A stretch of DNA of 64,000 nucleotides from Massiliimalia timonensis (lineage in GTDB: Bacteria > Bacillota > Clostridia > Oscillospirales > Ruminococcaceae). Positions 34,976 to 41,194 of this stretch are shown piece by piece; the stretch's first letter is position 1, and every line of letters starts with the position of its first letter. The stretch covers positions 558,001 through 622,000 of the forward strand of contig NZ_FYDD01000004.1 of NCBI RefSeq assembly GCF_900186585.1, written 5' to 3'. Under the pieces are notes generated by a model. It was given only the letters and a program-made list of their open reading frames with translations, did not search any database and had not been told where the DNA came from. The translations under genes and the position numbers were made by a program.

Positions 34976-36424
34976 TTACAGTAATTCTTTTAAGATAATG
35001 TAAGCAACGGTCACCAGACTTTTTGCTTCCACATAGTCGCGATCTATCCGGTAAGGGGTGGTTTCCAGCTGCTTTTTCAGGGCGCAGACACGTTCATATC
35101 CGTTTACGATCTCTTGTTGGTTCGGCGTGATGAAATAAGCGCGCTGCATGATCGCGCGGGTCTCGGTGCGGATACCTGCCGGCAAGGGCAGGGCGTTCTG
35201 TATTTCTGGGAACTCGGCTGGTACAGGGGAAATTTGTTCCTCCTGTGCCAGACGGTTGATCTCGTCCGCCGCACGGTGGGAGAAGACAAGAGCCTCCAGC
35301 AGGGAATTGCTGGCCAAACGGTTGTTTCCGTGCACCCCGGTGTGGGAGCATTCTCCGGCAGCATAGAGCCGGTCGACGGAGGATTTCCCGTTAAGGTCCA
35401 CATCGATTCCACCCATCAGGTAATGTTGGCAGGGGTAGATCGGAATCGGTTCTTTCGTCATATCAAAGCCCTGTTCTAAAACCCGGCTGTAGATCATTGG
35501 AAACCGTTCCCGGACAAAGTTAGCGGGCTTATGGGTAATATCCAGATAAAACTCCTTAGAGCCAGTCGCTTTTTGTTCTTCCATAATAGCGTGGGAAACC
35601 ACATCTCTGGGAGCCAGTTCCAGGCGCTCGTCATATTTGTGCATAAAGCGTTCCCGGCGGCAGTTGAGAAGATAGGCGCCCTCCCCGCGCACTGATTCCG
35701 AGATTAGGAAGGTTTCACGGGTCAGGTGATTGGCAAACCCGGTTGGATGGAACTGGACCAGATGAAGATTCTTGATCTTGGCGCCTAGCTGGTAAGCAAG
35801 GGCAATACCGTCGCCGGTCGCGATCTTGGAATTCGTAGTGTATTCGTATACCCGGCCGATCCCACCTGTTGCCAGAATACAGTAGTGGGAACTGACCAGA
35901 AAATGCTCGTCTCCGGACAAAATGTCGAAGCTGAAGCCTTTCCCTTTTGCCATGCCGCAGACCACAGCGTGTTCCAGCAGTTCCACGTTTTTCCGCTTTT
36001 TCACGGCCTCGATCAATGTTTCGGAAACAGCCCGCCCGGTATAATCTTTATAATGGACGATACGGGGCTTGGAATGACCGCCCTCCAGGGTAAAGTGCAG
36101 AGACCCGTTTTCATGGTCAAATTCTGCGCCGTACTGTTCGATCAGTGCGCGGACCTCCTTTGGCCCCTGATCCACCAGGATCCGGACTGCGTTCGGGTTG
36201 TTTTTAAACCCGCCTGCGATCAGCGTATCGTTAAAGTGAGCGTCAGCACTGTCGTTTTCTGTGTCAATGACGGCGGCGATCCCTCCCTGGGCAAGCGCGG
36301 AGTTGCTGAGGATCAGTTCCTCTTTACAAACCAGCAGCACCCGAAGGCCAGGGCTTAAATTCAATGCGCCGTAAAGCCCGGCGATCCCGGCACCGACAAT
36401 GACAACATCATATTCTTTTTTCAC
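34976..36424 (-). CDS. nadB: L-aspartate oxidase
   Basis: A 482-residue flavoprotein oxidising aspartate to iminoaspartate, the first step of de novo NAD synthesis. It starts with the FAD-binding VVIVGAGIAGLYGAL and has the active-site HPTGF, the RGEGAYLLN segment and the conserved CQHYLMGGI and GVHGNNRLASNSLLEAL motifs. The C-terminal helical domain is somewhat short. In anaerobes fumarate or quinones probably replace oxygen as acceptor. It heads a nadB-nadC(-VOC) unit; the usual nadA partner is missing here. Confidence 0.96.
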   Translation of the reverse strand: MKKEYDVVIVGAGIAGLYGALNLSPGLRVLLVCKEELILSNSALAQGGIAAVIDTENDSADAHFNDTLIAGGFKNNPNAVRILVDQGPKEVRALIEQYGAEFDHENGSLHFTLEGGHSKPRIVHYKDYTGRAVSETLIEAVKKRKNVELLEHAVVCGMAKGKGFSFDILSGDEHFLVSSHYCILATGGIGRVYEYTTNSKIATGDGIALAYQLGAKIKNLHLVQFHPTGFANHLTRETFLISESVRGEGAYLLNCRRERFMHKYDERLELAPRDVVSHAIMEEQKATGSKEFYLDITHKPANFVRERFPMIYSRVLEQGFDMTKEPIPIYPCQHYLMGGIDVDLNGKSSVDRLYAAGECSHTGVHGNNRLASNSLLEALVFSHRAADEINRLAQEEQISPVPAEFPEIQNALPLPAGIRTETRAIMQRAYFITPNQQEIVNGYERVCALKKQLETTPYRIDRDYVEAKSLVTVAYIILKELL

Positions 36425-36682
36425 TATCTTTCACATCCCCAATAAATCATTGGCTGATTATCATACGTTACAAGTATACCATAAAAAGATAAGCGGCCGC
36501 AATGTTTCACGGCATGATTTTTTTAAAAACACACGGGTCGTCTTATAGTTTTTGTATAAAGCAGGGGGATGCCAGCCAATACTTTGATTGCCAGCCTGTA
36601 TGGAAAATGCCTAATTTGTAGGGAAGAGGGGAACTGGAAACTGAACAAACTGTGAAGCCTGTCCCAAAACAGATGGATTTTC

Positions 36683-36711
36683 TTGACAAGCCTTGCAAAG
36701 GTGGATACAAT
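36683..36711 (+). promoter_or_regulatory. strong sigma-A promoter upstream of rnj
   Basis: A consensus TTGACA (36683-36688), exactly 17 bases, and TACAAT (36706-36711). The start site would be near 36718, about 320 bases before the rnj start codon. Confidence 0.88.
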
Positions 36712-36717
36712 AAGAAT

Positions 36718-36972
36718 AAAGAAACAGTTCGGTTAAAGTTTTCTCTTACGGTTTGGACGGAACAAAAAGCAAAACATCACAGAATGATGACCTTATCATG
36801 CTTTTTCTTCCGATTTTCTGATGTGGCATGAAACGTGTACGGTAATACGAGCGGGATACAGACCCATAGTGGCCGATCGGAAACAGCCAGGCTACATAAG
36901 CAGACAAGTATGATTGATGTACGGAGATCTCAGCGGAGCCAAGAACAAAAAGGGGCTCGGCTTATTATTTTG
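36718..36972 (+). ncRNA. probable structured RNA (long leader or independent ncRNA)
   Basis: Non-coding transcript of about 250 bases predicted from the promoter. Readable structure: stem CGGAA + AAAAAGC (36758-36770, with a single C mismatch position) pairs with GCTTTTT + TTCCG (36800-36812). It encloses a CATCA/TGATG hairpin (36775-36789). Downstream are GGG/CCC and TAG-GGC/GCC-CTA helices around 36850-36895. A near-perfect AGCGGAGCC/GGCTCGGCT hairpin with T-rich tail (36931-36970) resembles a terminator. I cannot place it in a family; raiA-type RNA is one idea to test. Confidence 0.6.
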
Positions 36973-37037
36973 TGATTATTTTTGGATGATTGAAGGGAAA
37001 TTTTCTCCGTATGACCGAGGAAAAGTGAGGAGATATT

Positions 37038-39062
37038 GTGGAAAAGCAAGAAAAACAGAATGGAAAAATGAATACAGGAAAACAGCAAAATGGAAAGAAT
37101 ACGGCTCCACGGCACCGCAGTGCGCCGCGCCGTTCTGCGGCGAAAGCACCTCAGGAAATGACGATCGAAGAACGCCTGCGCGCTTTGCGTATGCAGCAGG
37201 AAGCGACTGTTGAGGCCGCCCCGGAGATGCTGGCGGCTGAGCCTGCAAAGCCGGTGAAAAAAGAGCCTGCTCCCAAGCGGGGACGCCCGGCGAAGCCAGC
37301 GGCTGAAAAAGCTCCTGCCAAACGGGGAAGACCAGCTGCAAAGCCTGCCTCAGGCACAGCAAAAACCGCTGCGGGGAATGGAAAGAAGAGCAGGGCCGCC
37401 AGAAAAACTCCGGTCCGGATCATTCCGTTGGGCGGGCTGCATGAGGTAGGAAAAAACATCACCGTATATGAATGCGGCCAAGATGCCTTTCTGGTAGACT
37501 GCGGCATGGGCTTCCCGGATGCGGATATGCTGGGGGTAGATTTGGTGATCCCCGATTTTACCTATCTGGAAAAGAACGCGGACAAGATCCGTGGGATCGT
37601 GATCACCCACGGACATGAGGACCATATTGGTTCTATTCCTTATTTATTACGAAAGATCAACGTCCCGATCTATGGGACAAAATTGGCGATCGGGTTGATC
37701 GAGGGGAAACTGAAGGAACACGGCCTGCTTGGCAAAGCAGATCTGCGCGTCATCACTCCAAAACAGACGGTCAAAATGGGGTGTATGTCCGTGGAATTTA
37801 TCCGGGTCAACCATTCCATCCCGGATTCTGTCGGCGTGGCAATCCACACTCCTGCCGGCGTAATTGTTTATACCGGAGACTTTAAAGTAGACTTTTCCCC
37901 GATCGAAGGGGACATTATCGACCTGGCACGGTTTGCAGAACTGGGCAGCAAGGGCGTATTGTGCCTTTTGTCGGATTCCACCAACGCGGAACGCCCCGGT
38001 TCTACCATGAGCGAAAGCAAGGTGGGGCAGTCCTTTAACACCCTGTTTAACAGGGCGGAGGGGAAACGGATCATCGTGGCGACGTTCTCATCGAATATCC
38101 ACCGGATTCAGCAGATCGCAGACAATGCGATGAAATACGGCCGAAAGGTCGCGGTATCCGGCCGAAGCATGATCAACGTGGTCGGCAAGGCGATGGAGCT
38201 GGGCTATTTAAAGGTGCCGGACGGATTGTTTATTGATATTGACGCGATCAACCGCTATCCTGCGGATAAGATCGTGCTGATCACCACGGGAAGCCAAGGT
38301 GAACCGCTTTCCGCGTTGTCACGGATGGCTTCCTCCGATCACCGGAAGGTCAGCGTTACGCCGAATGATTTCATCATTATTTCCGCAACGCCGATCCCGG
38401 GGAATGAAAAGCACGTGACCCGGGTCGTGAACGATCTTTTGAAGCTCGGCGCGGAAGTGATCTATGAAAAGATGTACGAAGTGCATGTTTCCGGGCATGC
38501 CTGCCAGGACGAATTGAAATTGATCCTTTCTCTGACAAAGCCGAAATTCTTTATCCCGGTGCACGGGGAATACAAGCATCTGGTCGCGCACGCTCATCTG
38601 GCACAGTCAGTGGGGATCCCGCCGTCGAATATCCTGATCGGGGATATTGGGCAGGTGATCCAGGTGGATAACGTGGAGATGAAGGTGATCGGAAATGTAG
38701 AGGCCGGAGGCGTATTCGTAGACGGCTTGGGCGTGGGCGATGTCGGCTCTATCGTGATCCGGGACCGGAAGCGTCTGGCGCAGGACGGCCTGATCATTAT
38801 TGTCGCGACCATCGAAAAGGAAACCGGTGCCTGCATGGCCGGCCCGGATATCGTATCCAGAGGGTTTGTCTATGTGCGGGAATCGGAAGAACTGATGGAA
38901 GAGGCGCGGCTGTTAGTGAAAAAGGCGTTGGACCAGTGCTTGGACAGCGGGATCCGCGACTGGACCACCATGAAAAACAGCATCAAAGACGCGCTTTCCA
39001 GCTTTATTTACCGGAAAACCAAGCGTTCACCGATGATTTTGCCGATCATGATGGAAATTTAG
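37038..39062 (+). CDS. rnj: ribonuclease J with extended basic N-terminus
   Basis: A 674-residue RNase J, the 5'-3' exo- and endoribonuclease central to mRNA decay and rRNA maturation in Firmicutes. The metallo-beta-lactamase/beta-CASP core begins about residue 127 (RIIPLGGLHEVGKN) and contains the zinc motif HGHEDH at 191-196, the SDSTNAERPG segment and the C-terminal HVSGHA motif. The core is of normal size (about 550 residues); the extra ~120 N-terminal residues are Lys/Arg/Ala/Pro-rich, with two KRGRPA repeats like AT-hook cores. The start is a GTG behind GAGGAGA. A long structured leader lies upstream. Confidence 0.96.
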   Translation: MEKQEKQNGKMNTGKQQNGKNTAPRHRSAPRRSAAKAPQEMTIEERLRALRMQQEATVEAAPEMLAAEPAKPVKKEPAPKRGRPAKPAAEKAPAKRGRPAAKPASGTAKTAAGNGKKSRAARKTPVRIIPLGGLHEVGKNITVYECGQDAFLVDCGMGFPDADMLGVDLVIPDFTYLEKNADKIRGIVITHGHEDHIGSIPYLLRKINVPIYGTKLAIGLIEGKLKEHGLLGKADLRVITPKQTVKMGCMSVEFIRVNHSIPDSVGVAIHTPAGVIVYTGDFKVDFSPIEGDIIDLARFAELGSKGVLCLLSDSTNAERPGSTMSESKVGQSFNTLFNRAEGKRIIVATFSSNIHRIQQIADNAMKYGRKVAVSGRSMINVVGKAMELGYLKVPDGLFIDIDAINRYPADKIVLITTGSQGEPLSALSRMASSDHRKVSVTPNDFIIISATPIPGNEKHVTRVVNDLLKLGAEVIYEKMYEVHVSGHACQDELKLILSLTKPKFFIPVHGEYKHLVAHAHLAQSVGIPPSNILIGDIGQVIQVDNVEMKVIGNVEAGGVFVDGLGVGDVGSIVIRDRKRLAQDGLIIIVATIEKETGACMAGPDIVSRGFVYVRESEELMEEARLLVKKALDQCLDSGIRDWTTMKNSIKDALSSFIYRKTKRSPMILPIMMEI

Positions 39063-39208: not shown

Positions 39209-41194
39209 GTGCAAAAATTTAAAAAGGTGTGGATTCTGCGGCCTTTTATGGTGCTAGCGGTCGCGTTGTCCGCCTTACTGTTGTTGATTGCATATTTTTA
39301 CCATTGGGTTTTGTTTGTCTGCCTGTTTCCCCTTGTTTTAGGTGCGCTGATTTACATGTTTTACCGGTATTTCAGGCTTCACAGGGAAATTTACCGCCTG
39401 CTGAAGAATATGGGGCAGCATTTGAATGTGACCCACCGCCAAGGGATGTTTAATCTCCCGATGCCGGCCGCTGTCGTTACTCAGCGCAGGGAAGTGATCT
39501 GGTACAACGACGCGTTTCGGAAGGTGTTGTCGGAAGAGGACCTGTACGGGTCTTACTTAAACCGGATCACCTTTCGTTCTTTGGAGGAGTTAAAGCATCA
39601 TCAGGGGGATGTGATCTCCTATAAAGATAAGCACTATAAAGTGTATATTGTAAGCTCCGATTCGGAGACTGAAGCGCTTCATCTGCTTTATTTTATTGAT
39701 GTCACAGAGTTGTACGACACCATGCGCAAATATCAGATGACCCGTCCGGTCGTGATGGTGATTTTGCTGGACAGCTATGAGGAGATCGTGAAAAATGCAC
39801 GGGAAAGCGAAAAAACGCAGATCCTAAGCGAAGTGAACCGTTTGCTGGAGCAGTATATCGGAAAAACAACAGGTTTTATCATCCGGCTGGAGCGGGACCG
39901 TTATATGGCGATCATTGAGCGCCAGCACTTTGACAAGATGCTGCAGGACCGGTTCACTATCCTGGATGAAACGAAAAATATCCTGACGACCGAGCGTGTT
40001 CCGATCACGCTGTCGATCGGGATCGGTTACCAGGCGGATACCTTTGCAGAAAATGAACAGGACGCCCGCCAAGCATTGGAAATGGCTTTGGGGCGGGGCG
40101 GCGACCAGGTGGCCTTGATGATCGAGGGCGGATTTAAGTTTTACGGCGGGGCTTCTAAGGGCGTAGAAAAACGTACCAAGGTGAAGAGCCGTATCGTTGC
40201 TTCCGCAATGTCGGAATTGATCCTTAACAGCGATCAGGTCCTGATCATGGGACACAAATTTGCAGATCTTGACGCGGTGGGCTCCGCGATTGGGATGGCA
40301 AGGGCATGCCAATGCCTTGGAAAAGAAGTGCATATCGTGCTGGATTACCACAAATGTCTGGCTGATACTCTGGTGGACCATTACCGCAAATTTGAACAGG
40401 ATGAAAGGTTGTTTATCCCGCCGCACGAGGCGATGTCCCTTGCGCGCCGGGGAACCCTATTGATCATTGTGGATACGCATTCCCCGCATTTCGTGGAGAG
40501 TGCAGAGGTATATCAGGCCTGCAAGAATGTGGTGGTGATCGACCACCACAGGAAAATGGTCGATTATATCGACAACGCCGTGATTTTTTATCATGAGCCG
40601 TATGCCTCTTCCGCATCGGAGATGGTGACGGAGCTAGTACAGTATCTGGGCAATGAATGTGTGTTGGCGCATTACCATGCAGAGGCGCTTTTATCAGGGA
40701 TTATGCTGGATACCAAAAACTTTATCATGAAAACAGGAGTCCGGACGTTTGAGGCGGCGGCGTACCTGAAAAAAATGGGTGCCGATACCGTGGAGGTGCG
40801 CAAATTGTTTGCCAGCTCCATGGACTCCTACCAGAATAAAACGAAGCTGGTGGCTTCGGCAGAAGTCTATAATGGATGTGCAATCGCGTGCAGCGACCTG
40901 CTGACCGACGACATCCGGGTAGTCGCAGCTCAGGCGGCCGACGACCTTTTGGGAATCAACGGGGTAGATGCTTCCTTTGTGATGTATGAACAAGGGGACA
41001 CCGTCAATGTTTCTGCCCGTTCCATGGGGGCGATGAATGTTCAGGTTATTATGGAAACGCTGGGCGGAGGTGGCCATTTAACGATGGCGGCAGCGCAGAT
41101 CGCGGATTCCGATATGCCTAAGGTCAAGCAGCTTTTGCTCAATGCGATCGACGATTACAATACGACACATAAAAAAGTGTCTCCCAATACTTGA
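39209..41194 (+). CDS. gdpP: c-di-AMP phosphodiesterase GdpP
   Basis: A 661-residue membrane phosphodiesterase matching GdpP in length and layout. It has two N-terminal helices (about 10-30 and 33-52), a PAS-like domain (about 75-165), a degenerate GGDEF domain (about 170-300) and a DHH/DHHA1 hydrolase. DHH motifs are [13 protein letters not shown] and VVVIDHHRK, and the C-terminal motif is GGGGHLTMA. It hydrolyses c-di-AMP to pApA, tuning cell-wall and osmotic homeostasis. It starts with GTG at 39209. It is followed by rplI, the usual Firmicutes order gdpP-rplI-dnaB. Confidence 0.96.

Follow-up and report, generated by a model that had tools for sequence, protein, structure and literature searches.

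A GTTCGG-type element at a fixed distance from the rnj promoter, a candidate feedback element at the 5' end of RNase J mRNAs in Bacillota

RNase J is a principal 5'-to-3' mRNA-degrading enzyme of Bacillota. By comparing about 376 stretches of DNA upstream of its gene, rnj, we found a short element (GTTCGG, or more generally G[TG]NCGG) located just inside the predicted transcript. As a conserved feature of rnj promoters, this element is well supported by the sequence comparison. Its function can be assigned only tentatively: we give a probability of about 0.4 to the explanation that it is a cis-regulatory element at the 5' end of the rnj mRNA, most likely serving feedback by RNase J. The original prediction for this region, a promoter-driven structured RNA ahead of rnj, did not mention GTTCGG at about +10, which is what is really conserved.

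The window, a stretch of 64,000 nt from Massiliimalia timonensis (Oscillospirales), contains the promoter between the divergent genes nadB and rnj. The region is rnj's own promoter followed by a long 5' untranslated leader (Table 1), and the predicted near-consensus character of the promoter was borne out. The rnj product is RNase J (TIGR00649, 655 bits; Pfam RNase_J domains), with 81% identity to that of Massiliimalia massiliensis (L002/L033). The region had been described as noncoding, and indeed a protein-coding reading of the leader was sought and not found: the only long plus strand ORFs either start ahead of the promoter or overlap rnj and lack a ribosome site.

Table 1. Features of the nadB-rnj region, with positions in the window
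Feature	Position	Strand	Remarks
nadB, divergent from rnj	34976-36424	-	
Sigma-A type rnj promoter, TTGACA-N17-TACAAT	36683-36711	+	11/12 consensus matches
rnj 5' untranslated leader, ~320 nt	~36718-37037	+	Start site inferred from the -10 box
Core element, GTTCGG here and G[TG]NCGG in general	36727-36732	+	15 nt past the -10 box, ~+10 to +15 of the transcript
Hairpin with a stem of 13 pairs (one c.c mismatch)	36758-36771/36799-36812	+	Fold, -15.1 kcal/mol
Second leader motif, TACATA	36893-36898	+	In 31/73 nonredundant leaders vs 6.0 expected
Terminator-/attenuator-like hairpin AGCGGAGCC/GGCTCGGCT with U-rich tail	36932-36971 (hairpin, 36932-36962)	+	-12.8 kcal/mol
rnj	37038-39062	+	GTG start; ribosome site GAGGAG, 37027-37032

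Several other properties of the locus were recorded. At its N terminus, RNase J is extended by about 120 aa of basic, low-complexity sequence (encoded at 37038-37400) in which there are repeats resembling AT hooks (KRGRPAKP, KRGRPAAKP), although the score for Pfam AT_hook was below the cut-off; in several relatives, RNase J has basic tails without the KRGRPAKP-type repeat. The sequence GAAACTGAACAAACTG (36637-36652) lies 30 nt 5' of the -35 box, is unchanged in M. massiliensis, and could be a site serving the divergent nadB or rnj. The gene 3' of rnj (39209-41194) matched the GdpP-like signaling protein model PRK14538 with a score below the cut-off. Its product would be of the cyclic-di-AMP phosphodiesterase type, and it may be on the rnj transcript too.

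The rnj upstreams were gathered by protein search and subsequent fetching of the stretches. They comprised 260 distinct sequences, mostly from Oscillospirales but including 29 class-wide loci, and 116 class- or phylum-wide upstreams. Among the 10-mers 5' of rnj, enrichment was highest for TTTGTTCGGA and words overlapping it, and when the upstreams were laid out, words of this type fell at a single place, directly past a near-consensus promoter. The promoter together with exact GTTCGG was present in 86 of the 260 upstreams, a count made partly on the sequences used for motif discovery and including two copies that were low on a profile scan and may be spurious. Profile scanning of the remaining 171 upstreams added 33 degenerate copies (GTCCGG, GTACGG, GTTCGT, and others) that scored higher than the best of 171 reverse-strand controls. 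About half of the rnj upstreams lack a recognizable copy.

In the 86 upstreams with exact GTTCGG, the spacing to the -10 box was nearly always 14 to 17 nt. G[TG]NCGG lies about 8 to 11 nt into the transcript, in the zone from +8 to +16. The core is preceded by T at positions -3 and -1 and followed by A and T, and its third position is free to vary among the copies. Furthermore, positions -1 and +6, which flank the hexamer, covary (mostly T-A; A-T in the window; also G-C, C-G, and G-T) in a test in which the relatedness of the sequences was removed only roughly. No helix was found beyond this flanking pair.

The element extends well outside Oscillospirales. The promoter with G[TG]NCGG at 13 to 18 nt was detected in 37 of the 116 distinct class- or phylum-level upstreams; these sets were collected later, and the relaxed pattern was fixed after part of them had been seen. 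Permuted patterns (n = 120) gave a median of 4 matches in the same 116 upstreams, with a top value of 38, and the high-scoring permutations keep G..CGG and so match largely the same sites. The reverse-complement control and the far-upstream control each gave 0 matches. The distance profile was almost flat save for a sharp peak at 14 to 17 nt, and the phylum set peaked at 16 nt.

The element is also specific to rnj. The loci compared contain 228 other promoter-like sites, of which a single one had it; five more matches were rnj promoters of duplicate loci. In four of four genus genomes, the promoter with the element occurs once per genome, each time before rnj. A regulon was considered and rejected: once the -35 box was dropped from the pattern, matches at other places in the genus genomes were at background, and in a class-wide scan the forward counts were about those of the reversed control. 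Three matches from large genomes (L393, L399, and L400) lie 316 to 384 nt 5' of the RNase J core, distances that would fit a promoter ahead of rpoY-rnjA. Importantly, leaders of only 39 to 53 nt still carry the element in five relatives (L144, L163, L252, L262, and L287), which argues that the rest of the leader is dispensable for it. Together, these genomic comparisons show an element that recurs across Bacillota, is specific to rnj promoters, and keeps a fixed spacing to the -10 box irrespective of leader length.

Other signals in the leaders were examined as well. TACATA was counted between the element and rnj, and its expectation was taken from a second-order Markov model. It is nearly always single per leader and lies 12 to about 290 nt from the element. 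Pairing between the 5' element region and the TACATA region (UAUGU/ACAUA), seen by eye in some Ruminococcaceae-like leaders, was not significant in 30 leaders (Wilcoxon P = 0.23), nor was a hairpin immediately 5' of TACATA (P = 0.56 and 0.33). GTACGG was enriched initially but was not among the top words of nonredundant leaders. A LexA (SOS) box, CGAAC-N4-GTTCG, was discarded because the window has only the GTTCGG half-site, with no CGAAC at the matching upstream distance, and because core position 3 varies among the copies. In many relatives, the element (36727-36740) reads TTGTTCGGAATT and looks like part of the 16S rRNA around position 550, presumably GUUGUUCGGAAUUA; this likeness is possibly a coincidence.

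The predicted structures themselves, a stem with one mismatch, a nested CATCA/TGATG, and a terminator-like hairpin, were all present in a fold check. The strands of the stem read CGGAA-c-AAAAAGCA and TGCTTTTT-c-TTCCG, and CATCA/TGATG (36775-36789) is nested inside. Compared with M. massiliensis L002, the stem has two compensatory pairs, which are suggestive for this one lineage. Covariation in orthologous upstreams was seen in this one relative, and pairing tests over 30 leaders were not significant. The terminator-like hairpin is followed by the U-rich stretch TATTATTTT and ends about 65 nt before rnj; due to a broken U-tract and a 13-nt loop, it is unflagged by a standard scan. Its counterpart in L002 keeps the design (-12.5 kcal/mol). 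Neither hairpin was recognized by eye in the other two genus leaders, and the stem is not a family-wide feature.

Structure above chance was not confirmed. The leader in the window had minimum free energy (MFE) z scores of -0.89 and -0.90, with 18/100 and 30/200 shuffles folding as well, and the mean MFE z score over 67 leaders was -1.37, compared to -1.33 for neighboring DNA. Neither a significant conserved hairpin nor long-range pairing was found across 30 leaders, and a hairpin holding the element in its loop was no more favored than in shuffles. Rfam 15 (4,227 models) gave no match in the 64 kb at the gathering threshold, and a permissive search of the leader returned only Flavo-1, which scored 21.5 bits where the threshold is 42. 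The raiA motif RNA, a Bacillota noncoding RNA with its own promoter that had been suggested for comparison, had no covariance match in the leader at the thresholds tried. A whole-leader nucleotide search of 100 related genomes matched one relative only, over 37 nt of the 5' end, and past the two motifs there was no trustworthy leader alignment. In summary, we found no supported conserved secondary structure that could carry the function instead of the element. The reading as an rnj leader stands, with promoter and fixed 5' element recurring across Bacillota, but not structured RNA as its conserved feature, and the structured noncoding RNA reading is weakly supported.

The element is likely to act in cis on rnj expression, would most probably work in the RNA, and probably sets the amount of RNase J made. 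We assign it to the rnj mRNA rather than to a separate RNA because it recurs at rnj across Bacillota and because the shortest leaders keep it. Feedback through the mRNA 5' end is our first choice since RNase J degrades RNA starting at the 5' end and since control of their own mRNAs is common among ribonucleases. According to this model, G[TG]NCGG would mark the 5' end of the rnj mRNA, and either RNase J or a partner that binds close to this end would tune transcript survival or early elongation, with feedback on the RNase J level as the outcome. The rest of the leader, long and variable and carrying TACATA, the hairpins, and the attenuator-like hairpin, would have been added in particular lineages. 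A bolder version, which we consider unlikely, is that RNase J acts on its own nascent 5' end at a promoter-proximal pause, with G[TG]NCGG as a phylum-wide feedback signal. If true, the RNase J level would be coupled to early elongation of its own gene.

The fixed distance to the -10 box is also fixed on the DNA, and thus both an operator in the DNA and a signal for early pausing have to be weighed against feedback through the mRNA; a DNA-level signal fits this distance equally well. A Bacillota-conserved transcription factor could bind G[TG]NCGG just past the start site and repress or activate rnj. The sharp spacing peak speaks for such an operator, and the covariation of the flanks, a weak hint, would also suit a protein touching both sides. 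However, the hexamer is nonpalindromic, the inverted half-site CCGAAC was too weakly enriched upstream to count as a second half-site (5 observed versus 1.6 expected), and in the genus the promoter with the element occurs at no other gene; a phylum-conserved factor with one target would be unusual. We therefore regard an operator as unlikely, if still a serious alternative. More unlikely is a signal in initial transcription, in which the element would set promoter escape, or a pause close to the promoter at about +12, and in this way tune rnj, possibly with RNase J acting on the stalled polymerase. The element does lie in the early elongation zone, and T-N-C-G-G may partially resemble published pause sequences, but the usual G ten bases 5' of the pause is missing from the profile, and a generic pause should also occur at other genes, which was not seen at the other promoter-like sites.

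The remaining explanations place the function in the long leader. A riboswitch-like or attenuator structure, the folded part of which would sense a signal and then either terminate or free rnj, would account for the hairpin design common to the window and L002 and for terminator-like hairpins of -10 kcal/mol or lower in 24% of the leaders, compared to 12% of shuffles. Against it stand the lack of an Rfam match, folding equal to that of flanking DNA, the nonsignificant hairpin and pairing tests, and the existence of leaders shorter than 60 nt, so that we consider it improbable. An independent noncoding RNA ending before rnj, as the original prediction allowed, would be consistent with the promoter and the terminator-like hairpin, but the element tracks rnj in distant families, on leaders too short for such an RNA, and the region can hardly be aligned even inside the genus. 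This possibility is disfavored to the point of being very improbable.

Among known systems, the cold box of E. coli cold-shock mRNAs is also a short conserved sequence near the mRNA 5' end, but it is found in several genes, whereas the rnj element is specific to one, and sequence, phylum, and genes differ. Control of rne, which encodes RNase E in E. coli, depends on conserved leader hairpins; in rnj leaders, by contrast, we found no hairpin to be conserved, and what is conserved is linear, a stretch of six letters at about +10. The rne 5' UTR is nevertheless similar in being a long leader of the mRNA for a major RNA-degrading enzyme, with proposed self-limiting of the mRNA (RNase E autoregulation is cited in PMC3328962, along with self-control via the mRNA for RNase III and PNPase). 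In B. subtilis, self-control of RNase Y through its own mRNA is established (PMC10303841). Like rnj, rny belongs to a Bacillota ribonuclease and has a long 5' UTR (164 nt); its mRNA is controlled by decay in which RNase J1 takes part, with RNase Y cleavages spread across both the UTR and the first part of the reading frame, and control persists after deletion of almost the whole 5' UTR (PMC10303841). It differs from rnj in that no +10 element was described for rny (PMC10303841). Since RNase J is a 5'-end-dependent exonuclease (PMC10303841), the 5' end of its own mRNA is a natural control point.

By analogy with these systems, RNase J autoregulation via the leader is plausible. As in a ribonuclease autoregulatory leader, a conserved cis element lies in the 5' region of a ribonuclease mRNA and is linked to the gene over wide distances. 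The rnj leader may work like such a leader and yet belongs to no Rfam family. We found no description of the element or of RNase J feedback via the leader in a search of the open-licence literature. A six-letter, position-fixed, one-gene element conserved across classes is an exact and cheap mutational target for studying RNase J homeostasis, and it would show annotators where rnj transcripts start.
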